From the NCBI GenBank assembly GCA_913009415.1, contig CAJVYM010000005.1, positions 1 to 47,618 on the forward strand: a DNA stretch of 47,618 nt. The letters are read 5' to 3'. Shown one piece after another: positions 15,757-27,099 of this stretch. The notes under the pieces are model-generated. The model made no database searches and had not been told where the DNA came from. It saw only the letters and a list, made by a program, of their open reading frames with translations. Positions within the stretch are counted from its first letter, which is position 1. Every line of letters starts with the position of its first letter. Both the position numbers and the translations under genes were made by a program. This stretch comes from an uncultured bacterium (GTDB lineage Bacteria > Bipolaricaulota > Bipolaricaulia > UBA7950 > UBA9294).

Positions 15757-15794
15757 TTGACAAAATGCTTGTAATGCTATAGCATTATAGCATT
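15757..15794 (+). promoter_or_regulatory. Putative hsdM promoter with overlapping palindromic operator
   Basis: TTGACA at 15757-15762; perfect palindrome AATGCTATAGCATT (15773-15786) followed by a third half-site ATAGCATT (15787-15794), just upstream of an HTH-bearing gene. Confidence 0.6.
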
Positions 15795-15811
15795 GTGTTC
15801 CAAAGGAGATC

Positions 15812-17647
15812 ATGGACGGTAGAGAAATTCCTGAGGTTCTGAGGCAACTAAGAACCAAGCTTGGACTAACTCAAGATGATCTTGCTGCCCGACTTGGCGT
15901 CGCGTTTACCACATTGAATCGTTGGGAAAACGGGCGAACCACGCCGCGCGGCAAGGCCATGCAAGCAATCAGCGAACTTGTCACAGATGTTGGCCTGGGG
16001 GAACCGACTCTCGATCTTGGAATTCCCAAGCGCCGCCGCAGGGTCTTGAGAGAAGACGTGCTCACAACAAAATCGATGGAGCAGATGCTCTGGAGCGCGG
16101 CTTGTTCGATTAGGGGCGAGAAGGATGCCCCCAAGTTCAAGGACTACATCCTACCTCTTGTCTTCATTAAGCGCCTCTCTGATGTCTTTGAGGATGAGAT
16201 TGAGCGTCTCGCCGAGACTTACGGCGACCGCAAGACAGCCCTGGAGATTATTGAAGCCGACAAGAACCTGGTTCGTTTCTACATTCCGCCCGAGGCACGG
16301 TGGCCGGTCGTTAACGGTCGTGAGCCGTTTGATTGGCCCAAAGGGCAGAAGCCAAGAACGCTTGGCGAACGGCTCACGTTGACGATGCGAACGATTGTTA
16401 GAGCCAACGCGGGAGATCGTTCCAAGGACCTCAGCGGGGTCATCGATACCGTAGACTTCAACGAAACCCGTACTGGAGAGCGAGAGATCAGCGACTCAGC
16501 ATTAGCAGGTGTGATCGAGGCACTCTCTGATCCTCGCTACCGCCTTGGGCTCTACGACGTGGAGCCGGACTTCCTCGGACGTTGCTATGAGTACCTGCTT
16601 CGAAAGTTTGCCGAGGGACAAGGACAGAGTGCTGGTGAGTTCTTCACGCCGACCGAGGTTGGCTGGATCATGGCTCACATGGTTCGGCCATCTCAAGGGG
16701 AAGAAGTCTACGACTACGCCTGTGGATCGGCCGGGTTATTGATCAAGTGTGAGCTGGCCCTTCAGGAACGCGAACTGAAGGTCAATCGTCCTCTTAAGCT
16801 TTACGGGCAAGAGATCAACGGTTCAAGCTACGCCATCGCTCGGATGAATATGGTCATTCACGACATGGAAGGCGAAATCGTGCGTGGCAACTCGATGACC
16901 AACCCGAAGTTTCGGGATTCGGATTCAAGCCTCAGAAAGTTTGACATCGTGGTCGCAAACCCCATGTGGAACCAATCCTACGATCGAGCGATCTACGAGA
17001 GCGACAATTTCGGACGGTTTGAGGAACATGGCAGTATCACATCCGGGAAAGCAGACTGGGCATGGCTTCAGCACACTATAGCCTCGCTCAAGTCTACAGG
17101 ACGAGCGGCTGTCGTTTTAGATACGGGTGCAGTCACTCGTGGCAGCGGAAGCCGGAACGAGGACAGAGAGAAGATCATCCGCAAGTGGTTTGTCGACCAT
17201 GATCTTGTAGAAGGCGTCATTCTTCTACCAGACAACCTGTTCTACAACACAAGCGCCGCTGGGATCATCATCCTGCTCAATCGGAACAAGCTTCCGCATC
17301 GCAAGGCTAAGATCGTGCTCGTGAACGCGAGCCAAGAGTTCAAGAAGGGCCGTCCGAAGAATTACATTCCGGATGACAGCATCCGCAAGATCGCTCAAGC
17401 GTTCATCAAAGGGCAGGACATAGAACGATTTGTCAAGGTTATCACCAACGAAGAAGCGATGGAGAAAGACTACAACCTCTCCCCCTCCCGCTACGTAGAC
17501 ACGAGTGAGAAGGAAATCTACCGGCCGATTCCCGAGATCCTGGATGAGCTTTGGGGCCCTGCTGGTCTTGAGAAGAAGGCCAAAGAGATCGATATCGAAC
17601 TGCGAAAAATCTTCAACAAGCTCGGTTTCGGAGAGGAACCAAAATGA
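15812..17647 (+). CDS. hsdM: Type I restriction-modification methyltransferase subunit with N-terminal XRE HTH
   Basis: LRTKLGLTQDDLAARLGVAFTTLNRWENGRTTPRGKA HTH fused to HsdM; GEFFTPTEVGWIM, DYACGSAGLLIKC and VVANPMWNQ (NPxW-type) motifs. Confidence 0.93.
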   Translation: MDGREIPEVLRQLRTKLGLTQDDLAARLGVAFTTLNRWENGRTTPRGKAMQAISELVTDVGLGEPTLDLGIPKRRRRVLREDVLTTKSMEQMLWSAACSIRGEKDAPKFKDYILPLVFIKRLSDVFEDEIERLAETYGDRKTALEIIEADKNLVRFYIPPEARWPVVNGREPFDWPKGQKPRTLGERLTLTMRTIVRANAGDRSKDLSGVIDTVDFNETRTGEREISDSALAGVIEALSDPRYRLGLYDVEPDFLGRCYEYLLRKFAEGQGQSAGEFFTPTEVGWIMAHMVRPSQGEEVYDYACGSAGLLIKCELALQERELKVNRPLKLYGQEINGSSYAIARMNMVIHDMEGEIVRGNSMTNPKFRDSDSSLRKFDIVVANPMWNQSYDRAIYESDNFGRFEEHGSITSGKADWAWLQHTIASLKSTGRAAVVLDTGAVTRGSGSRNEDREKIIRKWFVDHDLVEGVILLPDNLFYNTSAAGIIILLNRNKLPHRKAKIVLVNASQEFKKGRPKNYIPDDSIRKIAQAFIKGQDIERFVKVITNEEAMEKDYNLSPSRYVDTSEKEIYRPIPEILDELWGPAGLEKKAKEIDIELRKIFNKLGFGEEPK

Positions 17648-17665: not shown

Positions 17666-17694
17666 TTGACACCTGTAACGTCTCGTTGTATTAT
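17666..17694 (+). promoter_or_regulatory. Near-consensus sigma-70-type promoter upstream of the NYN gene
   Basis: TTGACA (17666-17671), 17-nt spacer, TATTAT (17689-17694). Confidence 0.7.
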
Positions 17695-17709: not shown

Positions 17710-17752
17710 CCCCGCTGGACCAGTCTCCGGACCTCTGGCGGGGTTATTCTTT
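17710..17752 (+). terminator. Stem-loop with T-rich tail in the NYN leader (attenuator-like)
   Basis: ccccgctgga...tctggcgggg (10-bp stem including two G-U pairs), then ttattcttt. Confidence 0.55.
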
Positions 17753-17771
17753 GTTCGCAGGAAGTGGCGTT

Positions 17772-18401
17772 ATGAAGGAACCCGCCTCCAAGCGCGCGAT
17801 CGCTTACATTGACGGACAGAACCTGTTCAACGCTGTTAAGGAAGCCTTCGGTTATCCCTATCCGAACTACAACATCCGACAACTAGCCGAGACCATCTGT
17901 GTCCAGCAGGGATGGGATTTGGCTGGTATTAACTTCTACACCGGGATTCCCGATCCCGACATTGATCCAAAGCGAAATCACTTCTGGATCGCGAAACTTG
18001 CTGCTATGGGGACGCGCGACATACAAACGTACTCTCGCCCACTGAGGTATTCGAACCAGCTTGTGCAGCTTCCTGACGGCACCACAACAGCAACGCTGGT
18101 TGGCAGAGAGAAAGGGATTGACGTTCGCCTAGCCCTTGACGTAGTACGCGGTGCCTTGGATAACCGGTATGACGTTGCCGTGATCTTCAGCCAGGATCAG
18201 GACCTGAGCGAAGTGGCCGATGAAATCCGTAAGATCGCCCGGAGAGATGATCGTTGGATCAAAGTGGCATGCGCTTTTCCGTTCAGTCCAACATCCCGCA
18301 ATCGCCGTGGCATCAACAGGACCGATTGGATTCGCATCGATCGCGCCACCTATGATGCCTGCCTCGATCCGAATGACTATCGAAGGAAGAAGAAGCCGTG
18401 A
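17772..18401 (+). CDS. NYN (PIN-like, LabA/DUF88) domain putative RNase
   Basis: RAIAYIDGQNLFNAVKEAFG; GIDVRLALDVVRGALDNRYDVAVIFSQDQDLSEVADEI; acidic NYN catalytic pattern. Confidence 0.85.
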   Translation: MKEPASKRAIAYIDGQNLFNAVKEAFGYPYPNYNIRQLAETICVQQGWDLAGINFYTGIPDPDIDPKRNHFWIAKLAAMGTRDIQTYSRPLRYSNQLVQLPDGTTTATLVGREKGIDVRLALDVVRGALDNRYDVAVIFSQDQDLSEVADEIRKIARRDDRWIKVACAFPFSPTSRNRRGINRTDWIRIDRATYDACLDPNDYRRKKKP

Positions 18402-18434
18402 TGAAATCCCAGAGGACGCGGAGGAAAGGGTACT

Positions 18435-19658
18435 ATGAGGCTCCTAAACGACATTTGTGAACTGCGAAGAGAAACTTGTTCGCCGCACGATAGCAATAGC
18501 GGAATCTATGTCGGTTTGGAGCACATCGATCCCGGGCAGTTCTTTCTCTCTCGTCACGGTTCTCCCACCCAGGTCCGAAGCACGAAGAGTCGCTTCTACG
18601 CTGGCGATGTGCTCTATGGTAAACTACGTCCCTATCTAGATAAGGCTGTCGTTGCAGAAACAGGGGGAATCTGCTCTACCGATATCCTGGTGCTTGAGCC
18701 CATTGAAGTACCCTCGTGGTTCCTTTGCGGTATTATTCATAGCGACGCCTTTATCGAACACGCCAAGCAGACGACCTACGGCGTCAATCATCCAAGAACT
18801 TCGTGGTCCGGAATCAAAGAGTTCGAAACGATGACATTTGCTCTCCTCGAGCAAAAGAAGATCGCGGCGGTGTTGTTGAAGATCCAGCGGGCGATTGAGA
18901 TGCAGGAGAAGATCATCCAGTCGCTCCGCGACCTCAAGAAGTCTACCATGCAGTACCTCTTCACCCACGGCCTTCGCGGCGAGAAAACCAAGATGACCAA
19001 AATCGGCGAGATCCCAGAGAGTTGGAATGTGGTACAGCTAGGTTCGATAGTAGGGATCAAGCACGGGTATGCCTTCAAGAGCCAGCACTTCACCTCAGAT
19101 GGCGAGTACATTCTCCTCACCCCTGGGAGTTTCTTCGAGGAAGGAGGCTTCCGCGACGAACCGGAGAAGCGAAAGTACTATAGTGGTGTGATTCCCGAGG
19201 GATTCGTATTGGAGGAGGGAGATCTCCTTGTGGCAATGACAGAACAGAAGAGAGGACTTCTGGGGAGCTCGTTGATTGTTCCAGAGTCAGGAAAGTACCT
19301 GCACAATCAACGGCTTGGGCTTGTACAAACGCGGGTGCAATCCAAGCTTTCAACAGGTTTCTTGTCTCATCTCTTCAACACCTCACGTATACGACAGAGA
19401 ATAGAGTTCTCTGCTACAGGCATGAAGGTCCGACATACGGCTCCCAGTCGCATCCTTGAACTCAGCATTCCTTTGCCAGCACTTGAGGAACAGAGCGATA
19501 TTGCATCAGCGATCGACGCCCTGAACTCGAAACTGTTGGCTCATGAATCCAAGAAGGCCGTCCTTCAAGACCTCTTCAAGACGACGTTGAACAAGCTAAT
19601 GACTGGCGAGATTCGGGTCAGTGATCTCGATATTGATGTGCGCGAGGTAGAGGTATGA
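18435..19658 (+). CDS. hsdS: Type I restriction-modification specificity subunit
   Basis: Two TRD halves separated by EQKKIAAVLLKIQRAIEMQEKIIQSLRDLKKSTMQYLFTHGL; second conserved helix LLAHESKKAVLQDLFKTTLNKLMTGEI. Confidence 0.92.
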   Translation: MRLLNDICELRRETCSPHDSNSGIYVGLEHIDPGQFFLSRHGSPTQVRSTKSRFYAGDVLYGKLRPYLDKAVVAETGGICSTDILVLEPIEVPSWFLCGIIHSDAFIEHAKQTTYGVNHPRTSWSGIKEFETMTFALLEQKKIAAVLLKIQRAIEMQEKIIQSLRDLKKSTMQYLFTHGLRGEKTKMTKIGEIPESWNVVQLGSIVGIKHGYAFKSQHFTSDGEYILLTPGSFFEEGGFRDEPEKRKYYSGVIPEGFVLEEGDLLVAMTEQKRGLLGSSLIVPESGKYLHNQRLGLVQTRVQSKLSTGFLSHLFNTSRIRQRIEFSATGMKVRHTAPSRILELSIPLPALEEQSDIASAIDALNSKLLAHESKKAVLQDLFKTTLNKLMTGEIRVSDLDIDVREVEV

Positions 19659-19694: not shown

Positions 19695-19901
19695 ATGATG
19701 ACTGATGAGGAGGCTCGGATAGCGGCGGCAACCAAGCTTGAATGGATTGCCAGACTGGCAACAGAGACACACCAAAACCTGCCGGGTACGGCGAAAGGAA
19801 TGCACACTTTGCTTATACGGGTTGTACTCGATGTGCGGGATGCGTATGAGATGTTGAGGATAGGAAGCGCTGCTGAATGGGAGGTCCCCAATCATGATTA
19901 A
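19695..19901 (+). CDS. Small hypothetical protein (68 aa)
   Basis: Short ORF whose 3' end overlaps the AAA ATPase start by 8 nt. Confidence 0.55.
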   Translation: MMTDEEARIAAATKLEWIARLATETHQNLPGTAKGMHTLLIRVVLDVRDAYEMLRIGSAAEWEVPNHD

Positions 19902-21222
19902 ACGAGTTCGTATCCAGGGCTACAAGTCGCTGCACGACTTAGATTTGAAGCTCGGCAAGTTCTGCGTGTTGTTCGGTCCGAATGCCTCGGGGAAAAGCAA
20001 CTTCCTTGATGCGCTTCAGTTGCTGTCGGGCCTGATTAAGAGCCCGACACTGAATGATGCCTTTAAGCCCCCGTACCGCGGCGCTCCACTGGAGTCCTTT
20101 GCCTTTCCGGAAGGAGGAATGAAGGCGCTGCTGCAACAAGAGTCTGCCACAGTTCGTTTCGAGGTCGATGTTGAACTCTCCGACTCCACGATTATCAGCG
20201 TAGATCGGCTGATCCGCGAGATGCGCAAAACACGTTTGGTAAAGGAGACCGCCCAACCATACGGGGATCAGCCAAAGTCGCAGTACGTGAGAGAACGCTC
20301 CTTGCGCTACACCCTGGAAGTTGAAATCCTACCCAAGTCTGGCATTCTCCGCGTTCGAGACGAGCGGCTTTGTGCCCTCAATGGTTCAGGTGTACCAAAG
20401 GTCAGCAGGAATCCTTTCCTGGAAAAGGTAGGGCAAAAACTCCATCTGAGGATGGAGAAACAGTCCCACCCCACTTATCATGACGTAAATCTTGATCACA
20501 GCGTGTTATCGCTTTCACTGTATCCTCCTCATTACCCGCATGTCACTGCCTTCAAAAAGGAGTTGTCAAACTGGTCGTTCTTCTACTTCGAGCCACGAGA
20601 CCGGATGCGTCGATCTAGTCCCATCAAGGAAGTGCGTCATATCGGACTCATGGGTGAGGACCTCGCTGCCTTTCTCAACACACTTCGGGCTGTATCTCCA
20701 AGGCAACTGCAAGGGATTGAGAAGACCCTGCACGCGATCATTCCCTCAGTATCGGGAATTGAGGTAGAGCCAAACGACCTAGGAGAAGTGGAGCTTCGTA
20801 TTGTGGAGGGGAACACCAGTATCCCTGCAAGCGTCGTTTCAGAAGGAACTCTCCGTATCCTAGGCTTGCTGGCACTGAATGCTTCGACGGAACCTGCAAC
20901 ACTCGTCGGCTTTGAGGAACCTGAGAACGGTGTGCACCCTCGTCGAATCCGATTGATCGCAGAACTACTTAAGAGCCGCTCAGAACAGGCGGACACCCAA
21001 TTGATCGTGACGACACATTCACCAATTCTTCCGGACATGCTGTCCGATGAGGACCTGTATGTGTGCCGCAAGGCAGGTGGCAATACCGAGATCCAGCCTT
21101 TCTCTACCTGGGGAGAGCTAGCAAGAGACTCCACAATCCAGAAGGCTCTTGACGAAGAGCAACCATCGGGCGTGTCCATCCCTGTGTCGCAACGCATCCT
21201 ACGGGGAGATTTCGATGCGTAA
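19894..21222 (+). CDS. AAA family ATPase (AAA_15/AAA_21, SMC/RecF/OLD-like)
   Basis: IKRVRIQGYKSLHDLDLKLGKFCVLFGPNASGKSNFLDALQLL Walker A; LVGFEEPENGVHPRRIRLIAELL Walker B; VTTHSPILPDML H-loop. Confidence 0.92.
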   Translation: MIKRVRIQGYKSLHDLDLKLGKFCVLFGPNASGKSNFLDALQLLSGLIKSPTLNDAFKPPYRGAPLESFAFPEGGMKALLQQESATVRFEVDVELSDSTIISVDRLIREMRKTRLVKETAQPYGDQPKSQYVRERSLRYTLEVEILPKSGILRVRDERLCALNGSGVPKVSRNPFLEKVGQKLHLRMEKQSHPTYHDVNLDHSVLSLSLYPPHYPHVTAFKKELSNWSFFYFEPRDRMRRSSPIKEVRHIGLMGEDLAAFLNTLRAVSPRQLQGIEKTLHAIIPSVSGIEVEPNDLGEVELRIVEGNTSIPASVVSEGTLRILGLLALNASTEPATLVGFEEPENGVHPRRIRLIAELLKSRSEQADTQLIVTTHSPILPDMLSDEDLYVCRKAGGNTEIQPFSTWGELARDSTIQKALDEEQPSGVSIPVSQRILRGDFDA

Positions 21223-21814
21223 AACCATCATCTTTGGCGAGGACTATGGTCACGAAGTGGTCGCGAAGACCCTTTTGCTACGGATGGCCGAAGCGGAAGA
21301 TATCAGCATCGAAACAAGCGTTCGTAGTTGTCGCGGTGGCTACGGGAGAATGATGAACGAGTTACGTGAGTTCGCTGAGGAACTCAAGACTGGGAGACAC
21401 CAATTGCCCGATCTGCTGCTTGTCGCAACCGATGCAGACTGCAAAGGGATCACAGCGCGAACGCAGGAAGTGATGAGTTGCGTTCCTGAAGAGCTACATT
21501 GCTTCACATCTTGCATGATTCCTGATCCGCATGTTGAGCGATGGCTTCTCCTCGATTCACGAGCATTCAAATCCGTTCTCGGTTGTGGCTGTCAAGCACC
21601 TGATGCCAAATGCGAGCGACACCGCTACAAGAAGCTTCTCCGCGAAGCTGTTACTAACGCTGGAGTGACCCCTCAACTTGGCGGCCTCGAGTATGCAGAG
21701 GATCTTGTTCGGACCATGGACATGGATAAGGTAGCACAGTTAGATACATCGTTCAGGAAATCTGTCAGCGGGATTCGGAGCTTCCTGATGAAGTGGAGCA
21801 TGGAGGAGCGATGA
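21215..21814 (+). CDS. TOPRIM-like / DUF4276-like partner of the AAA ATPase
   Basis: IIFGEDYGHEVVAKTLLLRMAEAE ... RSCRGGYGRMMNEL ... DLLLVATDADCKG; overlaps the ATPase gene by 8 nt. Confidence 0.6.
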   Translation: MRKTIIFGEDYGHEVVAKTLLLRMAEAEDISIETSVRSCRGGYGRMMNELREFAEELKTGRHQLPDLLLVATDADCKGITARTQEVMSCVPEELHCFTSCMIPDPHVERWLLLDSRAFKSVLGCGCQAPDAKCERHRYKKLLREAVTNAGVTPQLGGLEYAEDLVRTMDMDKVAQLDTSFRKSVSGIRSFLMKWSMEER

Positions 21815-21945
21815 GTGCCTTTGGTTCCGGACAAGATACCCAGCCCCTCATCCGCCACACGGAGAAGGTCGGATGGGCGTACGTCCCGATAACAAACGCA
21901 TTGTCGCTCCAGAAAAGCGAGGGGAACCGTAGGCAGGAAGTATGA
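21811..21945 (+). pseudogene. 44-aa mini-ORF homologous to the HsdR N-terminus
   Basis: MSAFGSGQDTQPLIRHTEKVGWAYVPITNALSLQKSEGNRRQEV* aligns with MTKLGTESDTVQNPLIRYAGEVGWTYVPTSEALSLRKGVG of hsdR at 23808. Confidence 0.75.
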
Positions 21946-23735
21946 CGAGAGAAAAACAGACCAGCGATAGACTGCGGAGAGTTGTAACGCGCAAAGCCCT
22001 GCAAGTGTTGGCCGGAGGACGATACTTTGACCGGGGTGAAGTCTACTTCCTCGAAGGCCGCGTTAGGTCGTTGCAGGAGCGCAAAGGTGTCGTGCAGGCA
22101 ACAGTGAACGGTACGCGTCCGTACAAGGTGCGGATCTGGGCGGAGAAGGGAGAGCTTGTAGGCACGTGTGACTGCCCTTTGGGGCGAGGAGGGAGCTTCT
22201 GTAAGCACATTGTGGCTACCGGTCTGGCGTGGATTGACAGTCAAGCGAGGCAGACGCGCTTGCCAGACCTCGAGAAAGGAACAAAGGCCCATTCGCCTCA
22301 ACCCGACATCACATCCTCAGACATCGAGGAATGGTTACAGCAAAAGTCTTCAAAGGACCTAGTTGCAATCATCATGGACCATGCGGATGAAAACGCTGAG
22401 TTCTATGATTCCTTGAAGATGCGGGTAGCGACCGGAGCAGAGACGGTGAATACTGTTGCTTTGCGAGCGGTCATTCGTGATACCATTGATATCGATGGCT
22501 TTATTCCCTACAGCGAGACGTATACATACTCTCGCGGTGTGGATCGAATTGCCCGGCAACTCCGGGAACTGCTGAACAGCGGGGAACAGACGCCAGCCCT
22601 CACATTAACGGAATACGCTATTGAGCTTGTGGAGAAGCAACTTGAACAGATAGACGACTCCGACGGTTCGCTGGGTATGGTCATCGAAGATCTGATGGCT
22701 TTGCATCTGGATGCGTGTCGTGCCGCTAAACCCGATCCGAAATCACTGGCCGAGAAGTTGTTCGACAACGAGATCAATGATCCGTGGGGTTTTTGGAACG
22801 ATTCCTACGAACGGTACGCTGCTATTCTGAAAAAAGAGGGCAAGAAAGCGTTCCGTCAATTAGCAGAGGAGGCGTGGGAACAACTGCCTCACCTCAAGCC
22901 AGGAGAGAAGGATCCAGACTCCTATGGGCGACGATGGACCCTCACGAAGATGGTGAAGGGCTTTGCCGAGAAAGATGGCGACTTCGAGCGCGTCGTGGAG
23001 GTGATGTCCAGCGATCTGTCGGACTCGCATGACTTTCTCGCTATTGCGGAGCGGTGTCGCGAAGCGAAGAAGTACGCACTGGCGCGTGAATGGGCTGAGA
23101 AGGGCCTCGAAGCGTTCTCGGATCAACCGGATTCCCGGCTACGCAAGTTCCTTGCCGAGGAGTATGTCCGTGCAAAGCGACAGGACAAGGCTGTAACGCT
23201 TCTCTGGGAGAATTTCGTAGATCGCTCTATCCTCACCACGTATCAGGACTTGTTGAAGTACGCCGAGAAGGCTAACCAAAAGAGCCCTTGGCGAGAGAAG
23301 GCGTTGAAGTGGATTCGAGACGACCTTGCACGGAGAAGGAAAGAAGCGAAAAGGAGCCAATCCCGTTGGTCTTGGGGGCTAGTCGACCATTCGTTGTTGG
23401 TTGAAATCTTTCTATGGGAGGAGAAGTTGGCTGATGCGTGGAAGGAGGCGCAGACCGGCGGATGCTCCGATTCACTGTGGCTCAGGCTGGCAAAGGAGCG
23501 GGAGGCCGAGTACCCCGCTGATGCAGTCCCCATCTATCAGCGTCTTGTAGAGCAGGAGATCCAGAAGAAAAACAACCAATCTTATCAGGAAGCCGTCGAC
23601 ATGATTGGTCATATTCGAAAGTTGCTGTTCAAAATGGGAAAGGAAAATGAGTTTAGGCAATACCTTGCAGAAATAAAGAAACAGCATAAGCGGAAACGAA
23701 ACTTCATCGGATACCTAGCAAGGAAGGAATGGTGA
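21942..23735 (+). CDS. SWIM zinc-finger domain protein (597 aa)
   Basis: GTCDCPLGRGGSFCKHIVATGLAWI (CxC...CxH SWIM motif) followed by a long helical, repeat-like C-terminal region. Confidence 0.85.
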   Translation: MTREKQTSDRLRRVVTRKALQVLAGGRYFDRGEVYFLEGRVRSLQERKGVVQATVNGTRPYKVRIWAEKGELVGTCDCPLGRGGSFCKHIVATGLAWIDSQARQTRLPDLEKGTKAHSPQPDITSSDIEEWLQQKSSKDLVAIIMDHADENAEFYDSLKMRVATGAETVNTVALRAVIRDTIDIDGFIPYSETYTYSRGVDRIARQLRELLNSGEQTPALTLTEYAIELVEKQLEQIDDSDGSLGMVIEDLMALHLDACRAAKPDPKSLAEKLFDNEINDPWGFWNDSYERYAAILKKEGKKAFRQLAEEAWEQLPHLKPGEKDPDSYGRRWTLTKMVKGFAEKDGDFERVVEVMSSDLSDSHDFLAIAERCREAKKYALAREWAEKGLEAFSDQPDSRLRKFLAEEYVRAKRQDKAVTLLWENFVDRSILTTYQDLLKYAEKANQKSPWREKALKWIRDDLARRRKEAKRSQSRWSWGLVDHSLLVEIFLWEEKLADAWKEAQTGGCSDSLWLRLAKEREAEYPADAVPIYQRLVEQEIQKKNNQSYQEAVDMIGHIRKLLFKMGKENEFRQYLAEIKKQHKRKRNFIGYLARKEW

Positions 23736-23807: not shown

Positions 23808-26720
23808 ATGACCAAGCTCGGAACAGAAAGCGATACCGTGCAGAATCCCCTCATCCGCTACGCGGGCGAGGTTGGCTGGACGTACGTCCCTACGTCGGAA
23901 GCTCTTTCGTTGCGGAAAGGCGTGGGAGGAATGCTGTTCAGCCGTGTACTGGAAGAGAAGCTCATCGAACTGAATCCCGGGCTCATAACGATGGACAACG
24001 CTGGTGATGTGATCCGCGCAATCGAGTCCGTTCCCAACACGATTGAGGGGAATAAGGAAGTCCTTGCATGGCTCCGTGAAGAGCAGAGCATCTATGACCA
24101 AGACGAAAAACGGGAGAGCAACGTTAGTGTCATCGATTTTGCTCATCCCGAGCGAAACGTTTTCCAAGTAACTGATGAATGGAACTACACCAACGGCCAG
24201 GAGACCAATCGCGCGGATGTGATGTTCCTGATCAACGGGATTCCGGTCGCGATCGTAGAAACCAAGAGTGCGCAGAAGTCAAAGGGAATCGAAAAGGGGA
24301 TGACCCAGATCCGGGAGTACCACCACGAGACGCCGGAGATGCTGACCGCTCCGCAGGTATTCGACGTTACCAACCTCCTTGATTTCTACTATGGCGCAAC
24401 ATGGAACCTGGATCGGAAGAATCTGTTCAATTGGCGAGATGAGGAATCCGGGAATTACGAGAGTAAGGTCAAACACTTCTTCGGCCGCCAGAGATTCTTG
24501 ACCATGCTCAAAGAATGGGTCCTCTTCTTCTACAAGGATGATGAACTGCAGAAGACGATTCTGCGTCAGCATCAGACCCGAGCAGTAGAGAAGATCCTCA
24601 ATCGATGCGCAGACAAGGAGAAAATAACCGGCCTGATTTGGCATACTCAAGGATCTGGCAAGACGTTCACCATGATCACGGCAGCCCGGCTGATCCTTCA
24701 GGACAAGGAAACGTTCGGCAAATCGACCGTTATCCTCATGATCGACCGGAATGAATTGGAGGGGCAGCTTGCAGGCTGGGTTGAGCGATTGCTCGGCGAA
24801 ATGCGCTCGCACGATATCAAGATTGAGCAGGCCACTAGCAAGAGGCATCTGCGCGAACTCCTTGCCTCCGATTTTCGCGGGTTGATTGTCTCGATGATTC
24901 ACAAGTTCGATGGCATCTTAAATAGCATCAACACTCGTGAGAACATCTTCGTCCTAATTGACGAAGCACACAGAACAACAGGTGGCGATCTCGGCAACTA
25001 CCTCGTTGGCGCCCTCCCGAACGCCACGCTGATCGGTTTCACCGGCACACCGATCGATAAGACGGCATACGGCAAGGGAACGTTCAAGATCTTCGGCAAG
25101 GAGGATGAGCAAGGGTATCTCGACAAGTATCCCATTGTGGAGTCAATCGAAGATGGTACGACTGTCCCACTAAAATACGTCCTCGCCCCAAATGAGATCA
25201 GGGTTCCACGCCGACAGCTCGAAGAGGAATTCCTGAATCTGGCGGAGGCCGAGGGGATTAGCGACGTAGACGAGTTGAATGTGATCTTAGACCACGCGAT
25301 GCGCCTGAAGACGTTTCTCAAGTCGCGGGATCGAGTTGAGAGGGTTGCGGCATTCGTAGCGAAACACTTCCAAGAGAATATTGAACCACTCGGATATAAG
25401 GCATTTCTGGTGGCGGTGGACCGTGAGGCGTGCGCGATGTACAAGGAGGCGTTGGACAAGGTTCTCCCTCCTGAATACTCCCTTCCGATCTACACATCCG
25501 CGCAGCACGACAGCGAGAAGTACCCCCTCGTGTATCGTCATCAGGTGAGCCCGGATGCGGAGAAGAAGGCGCGTAAGCTGTTCCCAAAGCCGGATACGTT
25601 GCCAAAGATCTTCATTGTCACCGATAAGCTTCTCACCGGCTTCGATGCGTCCATTCTCTACTGCATGTACCTGGACAAACCGATGCGGGATCATGTGCTC
25701 CTCCAGGCCATCGCGCGGGTCAATCGTCCCTATGAATGGGGCGAAGAGAGCCGCAAGCCTTGCGGGCTTGTAGTCGATTTCATTGGCATCTTTGAAAAGC
25801 TTGAGAAAGCGCTGGCGTTTGATTCGGATGTTGTCAGTGGCGTCATCGAGGATCTCGATCTTCTGCTGGATAAGTTTAAGGAGATGATGAACGGCCCGGC
25901 GGAGGAATACATCGTCATGGGCAGAGAATTGCTTGATGATAGAGGGATTGAAAAGGCTATCGATGTGTTCACCGACCAAGACAAGCGGGAGACATTCTAT
26001 CGAATCTACAAGCAGATCGAAACGCTCTACGAGATCCTCTCGCCTTCGCCTGAGCTGCGGGACTTCATAGATAACTTTGGTTCTCTCTCCATCTTGTATC
26101 GGATCATCCGAAACGCCTTCAGGAAAAGGTCTGTGCTGTACAGCGATGTGGCCCGCAAGACCGGGCAATTAGTCAGGGAGATGTCCAAGAGTTATGGTCT
26201 TGATATGACACCACCGGTGATCACGCTTGACCACAACACACTTAAGGCAATCAAAGACTCTAGCATGTCAGATAACTCGAAGGTGATTAACCTGGTAAAC
26301 AGCATTCGAAAGATCGTTAGCGAAGAAGAGGATTCAAGCCCATACCTCAAGCCGATTGGCGACCGTGCCGAAGCTATCCTCGAAGCCTTCGACACCCGCC
26401 AGATCACGGCGGAAGATTCCTTGCGGAGAATCGAACTTATGATTCGAGAGATCGTGGAAGCGCGCCGTCAGCAGTCGGAGATGGGACTCAATGCTACCAC
26501 GTTCTCCCTCTATTGGGTGCTTAAGGAAGAAGGGGTAACGGAATCGGAGAGCACTGCGATGACCATCAAAGGTATCTTTGACCGGTTTCCAAATTATGCG
26601 GAGAACGCAGCTGAACTTAGGCAGCTCAAGGCAGATCTTTACAAGATGCTGCTCCCGCTGGTGGGAAAGGATCGCATGGTCCCACTGGCTGACGCGATGC
26701 TCCGTGTTGTGAGAAGGTGA
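23808..26720 (+). CDS. hsdR: Type I restriction-modification endonuclease/translocase subunit
   Basis: VAIVETKSAQK nuclease motif; TGLIWHTQGSGKTFTMI Walker A; LIDEAHRTTGGDLG; GFTGTPID; QAIARVNRPY. Start at MTKLG inside the longer ORF from 23748. Confidence 0.94.
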   Translation: MTKLGTESDTVQNPLIRYAGEVGWTYVPTSEALSLRKGVGGMLFSRVLEEKLIELNPGLITMDNAGDVIRAIESVPNTIEGNKEVLAWLREEQSIYDQDEKRESNVSVIDFAHPERNVFQVTDEWNYTNGQETNRADVMFLINGIPVAIVETKSAQKSKGIEKGMTQIREYHHETPEMLTAPQVFDVTNLLDFYYGATWNLDRKNLFNWRDEESGNYESKVKHFFGRQRFLTMLKEWVLFFYKDDELQKTILRQHQTRAVEKILNRCADKEKITGLIWHTQGSGKTFTMITAARLILQDKETFGKSTVILMIDRNELEGQLAGWVERLLGEMRSHDIKIEQATSKRHLRELLASDFRGLIVSMIHKFDGILNSINTRENIFVLIDEAHRTTGGDLGNYLVGALPNATLIGFTGTPIDKTAYGKGTFKIFGKEDEQGYLDKYPIVESIEDGTTVPLKYVLAPNEIRVPRRQLEEEFLNLAEAEGISDVDELNVILDHAMRLKTFLKSRDRVERVAAFVAKHFQENIEPLGYKAFLVAVDREACAMYKEALDKVLPPEYSLPIYTSAQHDSEKYPLVYRHQVSPDAEKKARKLFPKPDTLPKIFIVTDKLLTGFDASILYCMYLDKPMRDHVLLQAIARVNRPYEWGEESRKPCGLVVDFIGIFEKLEKALAFDSDVVSGVIEDLDLLLDKFKEMMNGPAEEYIVMGRELLDDRGIEKAIDVFTDQDKRETFYRIYKQIETLYEILSPSPELRDFIDNFGSLSILYRIIRNAFRKRSVLYSDVARKTGQLVREMSKSYGLDMTPPVITLDHNTLKAIKDSSMSDNSKVINLVNSIRKIVSEEEDSSPYLKPIGDRAEAILEAFDTRQITAEDSLRRIELMIREIVEARRQQSEMGLNATTFSLYWVLKEEGVTESESTAMTIKGIFDRFPNYAENAAELRQLKADLYKMLLPLVGKDRMVPLADAMLRVVRR

Positions 26721-26769: not shown

Positions 26770-27099
26770 TTGCTCCATAACATGACTAAGCAAGACCGTG
26801 GGTTCTCTACCAAAGATGCTTTCAAGGAAGCCGTACGTAGTTGGGCGGATAGGCTCAATACCGAACCGTCTCAAATCCGGGTGCAGAGAATGAAGCACAA
26901 GTGGGCCTCGTGCTCCCCGCGAAAAACACTGACCTTCAGCGAAAATCTTCTGGCACAACCTAAGGAATTCCAGGAGTACGTGATCGTGCATGAACTACTG
27001 CATATACGGGTTCAAAACCATGGAAAACTATTCAGAAGCTTGATGTCGGTCTACTTACCTGACTGGGAAGACCGTGCTAATCGATTAAGCACTTCTTGA
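26770..27099 (+). CDS. YgjP/DUF45-type (M48-like) metallopeptidase domain protein
   Basis: MKHKWASCSPRKTLTFSENLL and VIVHELLHIRVQNHGKLFRSLM (HELxH...H). Confidence 0.85.
   Translation: MLHNMTKQDRGFSTKDAFKEAVRSWADRLNTEPSQIRVQRMKHKWASCSPRKTLTFSENLLAQPKEFQEYVIVHELLHIRVQNHGKLFRSLMSVYLPDWEDRANRLSTS

Follow-up and report, generated by a model that had tools for sequence, protein, structure and literature searches.

Two candidate defense modules in series, with gene stubs at their borders, within a type I restriction island (hsdS-hsdR gap) from an uncultured Bipolaricaulota bacterium

Do genes that overlap at every junction necessarily encode parts of one machine? The question is raised by a block of five co-oriented open reading frames (ORFs) at positions 19,695 to 23,735 of a 47,618-nucleotide (nt) stretch from an uncultured bacterium of the phylum Bipolaricaulota (NCBI GenBank assembly GCA_913009415.1, contig CAJVYM010000005.1, positions 1 to 47,618; hereafter, the window). 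In order, the block encodes a 68-residue protein, an AAA ATPase, a TOPRIM-like protein, a mini-ORF and a SWIM zinc-finger protein. An initial annotation, made from the sequence alone, took it for a single translationally coupled functional unit. Comparison with related loci suggests a different answer: very probably, the block is exchangeable cargo of a type I restriction island, lodged in the gap between its hsdS and hsdR genes, and consists of two independent candidate defense modules in series; a 5′ remnant of a former hsdR lies between them, and a 5′ remnant of a former cargo gene precedes them.

The block and its island

The island order is hsdM-NYN-hsdS-hsdR-ygjP, and the block fills the hsdS-hsdR gap (slot 2; slot 1 is the hsdM-hsdS gap). 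It qualifies as a type I island with embedded cargo because hsdM, hsdS and hsdR are intact and the genes interspersed among them are unrelated and differ from one related locus to another. The principal comparison is with G002, a genome of the same genus whose contig C48 also holds locus L009. The features are as follows.

15812–17647, + strand: HsdM (N6 methylase) with an N-terminal HTH_3 domain, backbone; Pfam N6_Mtase 4.4e-89, HsdM_N 4e-20, HTH_3 1.2e-13; 89% identical to the L009 orthologue
17751–18401, + strand: slot-1 cargo, NYN-domain protein, PADLOC HEC-09; NYN 1.4e-9, HEC-09 1.1e-14; 87% identical in L009
18435–19658, + strand: HsdS specificity subunit, its stop codon the left border of slot 2; Methylase_S 8.3e-16; G002 DNA homology ends at 19658
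19695–19901, + strand: 68-residue ORF, N-terminal stub of a slot-2 cargo gene; similarity to slot proteins of L048 and L049
19894–21222, + strand: AAA_21/OLD-type ATPase, HEC-01A-like, also related to MAD3, AriA and AbiLi; profile matches, intact motifs
21215–21814, + strand: DUF4276/HEC-01B-like, TOPRIM-like partner of the ATPase; HEC-01B (PDLC04196) 1.8e-6, alignment of the family
21811–21945, + strand: mini-ORF, hsdR′ stub, about 40 first codons of a diverged hsdR; similarity to HsdR N-termini
21942–23735, + strand: SWIM zinc-finger and DUF6880 protein, PADLOC candidate PDC-S62; PDC-S62 5.4e-59, DUF6880 5.2e-17
23808–26720, + strand: HsdR, with the right border of slot 2 12 nt inside the gene; TIGR00348 1e-134, above cut-off; G002 homology resumes at 23820
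26770–27099, + strand: YgjP/SprT-like metallopeptidase, backbone; PF01863 1.9e-30; 3′ of hsdR in most related loci

The initial annotation had placed all five ORFs and their four overlaps correctly. Each of the first two overlaps spans 8 nt (19894–19901 between the 68-residue ORF and the ATPase gene, and 21215–21222 between the ATPase and TOPRIM-like genes, the latter starting at ATG 21215), and the mini-ORF shares an ATGA with the TOPRIM-like gene (21811–21814) and another with the SWIM gene (21942–21945). Such overlaps are not peculiar to the block, as adjoining genes in this family of operons often share a short stretch of stop and start: hsdR starts at ATGA, GTGA or TTGA in 27 of 46 related loci, and hsdS and hsdR overlap each other directly at several empty slots. 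The true start of the window hsdR is probably ATG 23808 rather than TTG 23748, because the latter adds a 20-residue extension without support in relatives.

The AAA/TOPRIM-like pair

The ATPase was correctly recognized at the outset (AAA_21, E = 2.8e-32). Its Walker A (GPNASGKS), Walker B (EEPENGVHP) and THS motifs are intact, and it matches the HEC-01A model PDLC04184 over residues 1–387 (E = 5.9e-55), as well as MAD3 (1.2e-44), AriA (3.2e-32), AbiLi (9e-27), and GajA and Old (about 1e-17 to 1e-16). A profile search of PDB returned the OLD-family nuclease 6p74, PtuA and AriA; judging by its sequence, the ATPase falls in the OLD/PtuA/AriA superfamily. The TOPRIM-like label of its partner is plausible on indirect grounds. 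The window member matches HEC-01B and DUF4276 weakly, the latter below cut-off (E = 0.008), and matches are firmer in the family, five of whose six members match both DUF4276 and HEC-01B (best DUF4276 match, 1.5e-10). No usable fold was obtained: the AlphaFold prediction of the protein alone had a predicted local distance difference test score (pLDDT) of 37 and was not used, and searches for solved structures related to this protein or to the SWIM protein gave only spurious or very weak matches. In an alignment of the window protein with its five relatives, E9, E14, D73 and a PDPHxExW motif are invariant, which suggests a putative catalytic site. A TOPRIM domain has a catalytic E and a DxD; its third acidic position is occupied by D in the window protein, against N in all five relatives. 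TOPRIM identity of this DUF4276/HEC-01B-like protein is, on these grounds, a good guess.

The five relatives outside the window come from the same class (L055/L056) and from the phylum of G103 (L096–L099), and no homologues were found on plasmids or viral contigs. In all five, an AAA gene (35–49% identical) lies directly upstream of the TOPRIM-like gene, the 8-nt overlap being kept in four, and neither SWIM nor HsdR occurs near any of these pairs. The AAA and TOPRIM-like genes are a conserved two-gene unit of the HEC-01 kind. To this extent, the earlier likening of the two genes to ATPase/TOPRIM defense systems stands, both in its general logic and in the order of the overlapping genes.

The SWIM protein

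Recognition of the SWIM domain was also right (PF04434, E = 6e-4; motif CDC...FCKH intact). The protein matches PDC-S62 over its full length (residues 14–592; profile positions 8–558 of 566), and full-length relatives occur in Paraburkholderia and Streptomyces, without AAA/TOPRIM or hsd genes. Its proposed partnership with the AAA/TOPRIM-like pair was rejected: among the relatives searched in the phylum and on plasmids, none accompanies such a pair. The initial annotation had itself said that homologous AAA/TOPRIM-like pairs without SWIM would speak against its proposal, and such pairs are what was found, in all five outside relatives. The SWIM gene is thus not tied to the pair and is a separate module. 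In locus L026, a SWIM relative adjoins hsdM on the opposite strand, so the SWIM gene can travel with such islands and not with the pair.

Stubs in the block

The two remaining ORFs are remnants of other genes. Over 48–49 residues, the 68-residue ORF is 41–48% identical to the N-terminal part of two proteins of about 270–290 residues (L048:8630-9508 and L049:7250-8071), each encoded between hsdS and hsdR; a third member of this parent family is L011:700-1704. The ORF is a stub of such a slot-2 cargo protein, with the C-terminal 23S_rRNA_IVP-like region lost. The mini-ORF, correctly read at first as an HsdR fragment, aligns over 38–40 residues to HsdR N-termini, with 50% identity to that of the window (40 residues; E about 1e-10) and 55% to that of L041. 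It is open across 44 codons and is a remnant, the 5′ part of a diverged hsdR. A recent tandem copy of the 5′ end of the window hsdR was considered and rejected, given identity of only 50% and the closer match in L041. Most likely, the mini-ORF is a recombination scar from the joining of the second module. Both stubs match slot-boundary genes only.

Exchange of slot 2 between related islands

In both the window and G002, the island lies between PepF and YbaK, and the flanks and backbone are collinear at 82–84% DNA identity. Homology breaks at the hsdS stop codon and restarts 12 nt into hsdR, and G002 carries in this interval a CBASS pair of a CapV-like patatin and a DncV-type cyclase. The content of slot 2 has therefore been replaced wholesale relative to the G002 island. 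In a third genome of the genus (G001), PepF and YbaK are adjacent and the island is absent. Most simply, the block as a whole was exchanged after the window lineage had parted from that of G002, in an event independent of the surrounding DNA.

Three further observations concern these islands. The NYN (HEC-09) gene of slot 1 is 87% identical in G002, while slot 2 is swapped; the pace of evolution differs between the two gaps. The hsdS genes of the window and G002 have conserved ends and two diverged internal stretches (18408–18851 and 19031–19544), which would represent a specificity change within the same island. The patatin and DncV-like cyclase ORFs of L009 (7364–9527, between hsdS and hsdR) overlap each other, and the same pair is found in L010, from a different phylum.

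A protein search with HsdR gave 42 related loci, to which genome searches added more; the slot survey covered 59 non-redundant HsdR loci, the window among them. The hsdM-hsdS-hsdR-ygjP backbone is recurrent in this set, and the hsdS-hsdR gap ranges from 0 to 6 kb, being empty or holding different cargo in the other loci, including patatin with CD-NTase (CBASS), Ser/Thr kinase, YhcG nuclease, Schlafen-AlbA_2, RhuM-Fic, KAP NTPase, BRO, NYN and DUF3800. Some cargo families are present in both gaps, and therefore cargo can move between slots; YhcG-type nucleases (PDC-S02; L014, L010, L012, L048) and RhuM-related proteins (L016, where it is PDC-S23, L018, L041) were seen in either gap. The gene set and order of the five ORFs recur in none of the 58 other hsdR loci and none of the five AAA/TOPRIM loci, and no further surveyed locus has the AAA, TOPRIM-like or SWIM gene of the window in its hsdS-hsdR gap. 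A single five-gene system was rejected on this gene-order evidence. In a sample of Pseudomonadota searched for more HsdR loci, the sole match was the center genome itself, and the search of plasmids for HsdR relatives gave one distant match only.

Boundary stubs and staggered joints

The HsdR, HsdS and HsdM proteins of each of the 59 loci were cut into 60-residue tiles (approximately 3,900) and searched against the gaps of their own locus. HsdR matches in slot 2 were found in the window, L013, L026, L069, L071 and L078, and in every case they begin in the first tile. Only two loci have matches that extend further, into the second tile in L026 and as far as about residue 100 in L069. HsdS matches in slot 2 involve the C-terminal end only (L019 and L026, and L039 in a looser test). 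No HsdR segment starting internally was found in slot 2 of any tiled locus. The exceptions in the scan were hsdM matching itself at loci without a located hsdS, repeats of low complexity in L043, and HsdS matches to the first gap, seen in L033 and L092. The recurrence of boundary stubs, together with the lack of internal HsdR segments, points to the stacking of cargo by staggered joints. At L026 (6514–6762), an in-frame fusion joins an hsdR 5′ stub of 52 codons with about 32 codons from an hsdS 3′ end; it lies between two cargo groups and is exactly the product expected if two alleles were joined in a staggered way. The stubs of the window, L071 and L078 remain open, each with a stop codon that overlaps the start of the next cargo gene (in L071 and L078, ATGA; GTGAGTGA).

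For the window, the second module would have come via a staggered joint of two island alleles, hsdS-AAA-TOPRIM-hsdR5′ and SWIM-hsdR. The short overlaps may persist because joints that keep ribosomes running into the next gene would be retained in this operon. From knowledge of the OLD, PARIS and AbiL-type systems, the ATPase may sense an infection-related nucleic acid or protein and activate the TOPRIM-like protein as a nuclease, and the SWIM-DUF6880 protein would act separately, its zinc finger probably serving to bind protein, DNA or another nucleic acid. The embedded modules and restriction could thereby provide layered defenses from one operon, the defense roles of both modules being those of candidates. 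More generally, type I islands might gain modules serially by staggered joints, each leaving a translated hsdR 5′ (or hsdS 3′) stub that links the modules translationally, a tentative proposal to which we give less than an even chance.

Several points weigh against this account. The L013 stub, 14 residues long, adjoins masked bases, the locus of L069 is damaged, and L071 and L078, whose DUF3800 genes are 79% identical, may represent one event, so that three to five independent stub cases can be counted. The window stub, at about 50% identity to its own hsdR, fixes neither the donor nor the date of the event, and with no AAA-TOPRIM pair found in slot 2 of any other locus, the arrival of the pair is not traceable. 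The majority of the loci compared are metagenome assemblies, and the joint mechanism is deduced from end products.

Alternative explanations

The tight format of the block is what favors the proposal that its five ORFs form one co-evolved, translationally coupled system, with SWIM as third subunit of the AAA/TOPRIM-like complex: every junction overlaps, all genes are co-oriented, and terminator-like sites in the region are not above chance. However, overlaps are the ordinary format of these operons, two of the five ORFs are leftovers of other genes, and pair and SWIM gene each occur without the other, which makes this system very improbable; the first reading of the block as one unit is not supported. 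A narrower version of coupling, in which the hsdR′ stub has been kept as a translated leader that delivers ribosomes leaving the TOPRIM-like gene to the start of SWIM, is doubtful but deserves more weight. It would account for a stub that is open over its whole length between two ATGA overlaps and for the like arrangement in L071 and L078; the cases are few, two of them being probably one event, and survivorship of any joint permitting downstream expression would give the same picture. Such a leader would be compatible with two modules joined in series rather than opposed to them.

It is improbable that the SWIM protein is an accessory of the restriction enzyme, for instance a DNA-binding modulator of HsdR, instead of a separate module. 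Although the gene lies directly upstream of hsdR, and the L026 relative is likewise beside a restriction gene, SWIM is missing from nearly all related hsdR loci sampled, and its full-length relatives are found away from hsd genes. Least credible of all is an assembly artefact fusing two island alleles at the stub. The window is one among the 180 contigs of its metagenome assembly, and most of the comparison loci are metagenomic as well, but both flanks are collinear with G002, the stub has ATGA at both ends, and similar boundary stubs occur in unrelated loci; moreover, assembly chimeras join at identical sequence and not in a staggered manner between different genes. Two independent modules in slot 2 thus remain the preferred explanation.

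Relation to known systems

The modules resemble PADLOC candidates, and the HEC and PDC candidates themselves rest on embedded defense genes. HEC-01 (Hma-embedded candidate 1, an AAA ATPase with a DUF4276-type protein) shares with the window pair two adjacent genes, both of whose models are matched, whereas the window pair sits within a type I restriction operon and its TOPRIM-like partner is a divergent member. PDC-S62, a single-gene phage-defense candidate, shows no structural difference from the SWIM-DUF6880 protein; the window gene differs in that another module and an hsdR stub are stacked ahead of it. In enteropathogenic E. coli, the hsdS-hsdR site has been described as a potential recombination hotspot for defense systems (PMC12255303). 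That RptR/DarTG2 island likewise has defense genes between hsdS and hsdR and a downstream Zn metallopeptidase, but its cargo is a toxin-antitoxin pair and its RptR repressor is separate, while the window helix-turn-helix (HTH) domain is on HsdM; the term "scar" is absent from its text.

MADS, like the window, has methylase and specificity genes with an embedded AAA ATPase (MAD3) and a mad4-like neighbor. In contrast to MADS, the window HsdR is intact, the MADS kinase was not found, and all MADS models score far below NCBIfam cut-offs (MAD2, 52.5 against 720 bits; MAD3, 153 against 420; MAD5, 26.6 against 400). PARIS, AbiL, OLD and Gabija, to which the pair had been likened, have ATPases from the superfamily to which the window ATPase belongs, and its partner would, like theirs, putatively be of TOPRIM type. 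The likeness does not extend to particular systems: the window partner matches neither the AriB (DUF4435 TOPRIM) nor the AbiLii model, and, unlike in Gabija and OLD, the ATPase and its partner are separate ORFs, with no helicase gene besides HsdR and hence no GajB.

The modules and the slot are thus already known, and what may be new is the record left by the stubs. Boundary stubs were not found described as traces of stacking in the literature covered, whose scope did not include a key preprint on embedded defense; this is offered as a lead, not as a priority claim. If serial staggered joints are real, stubs would give acquisition order and module borders genome-wide, as a simple computable marker of where an embedded module ends and the next begins. 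This matters for "guilt-by-embedding" searches, in which stacked modules may be wrongly grouped as one system, and the analysis of the block corrects the tempting misreading of overlapping genes as one machine. In addition, the islands of the window and G002 provide a clean within-genus case of defense cargo swapped with breakpoints at gene borders and collinear surroundings.

Candidate regulatory elements

Upstream of hsdM (15757–15800), a promoter-like TTGACA-17 nt-TAGCAT overlaps a GCTATAGCATTATAGCAT palindrome/repeat. The site is a likely operator through which HsdM, by way of its HTH domain, would be autoregulated, in a role comparable to that of RptR sites. A second and strong promoter-like match, TTGACA-17-TATTAT (11/12), lies between hsdM and the NYN gene at 17666–17694, in a scan whose total was not above chance; from this candidate promoter, the NYN-hsdS genes and slot-2 cargo may be driven apart from hsdM.

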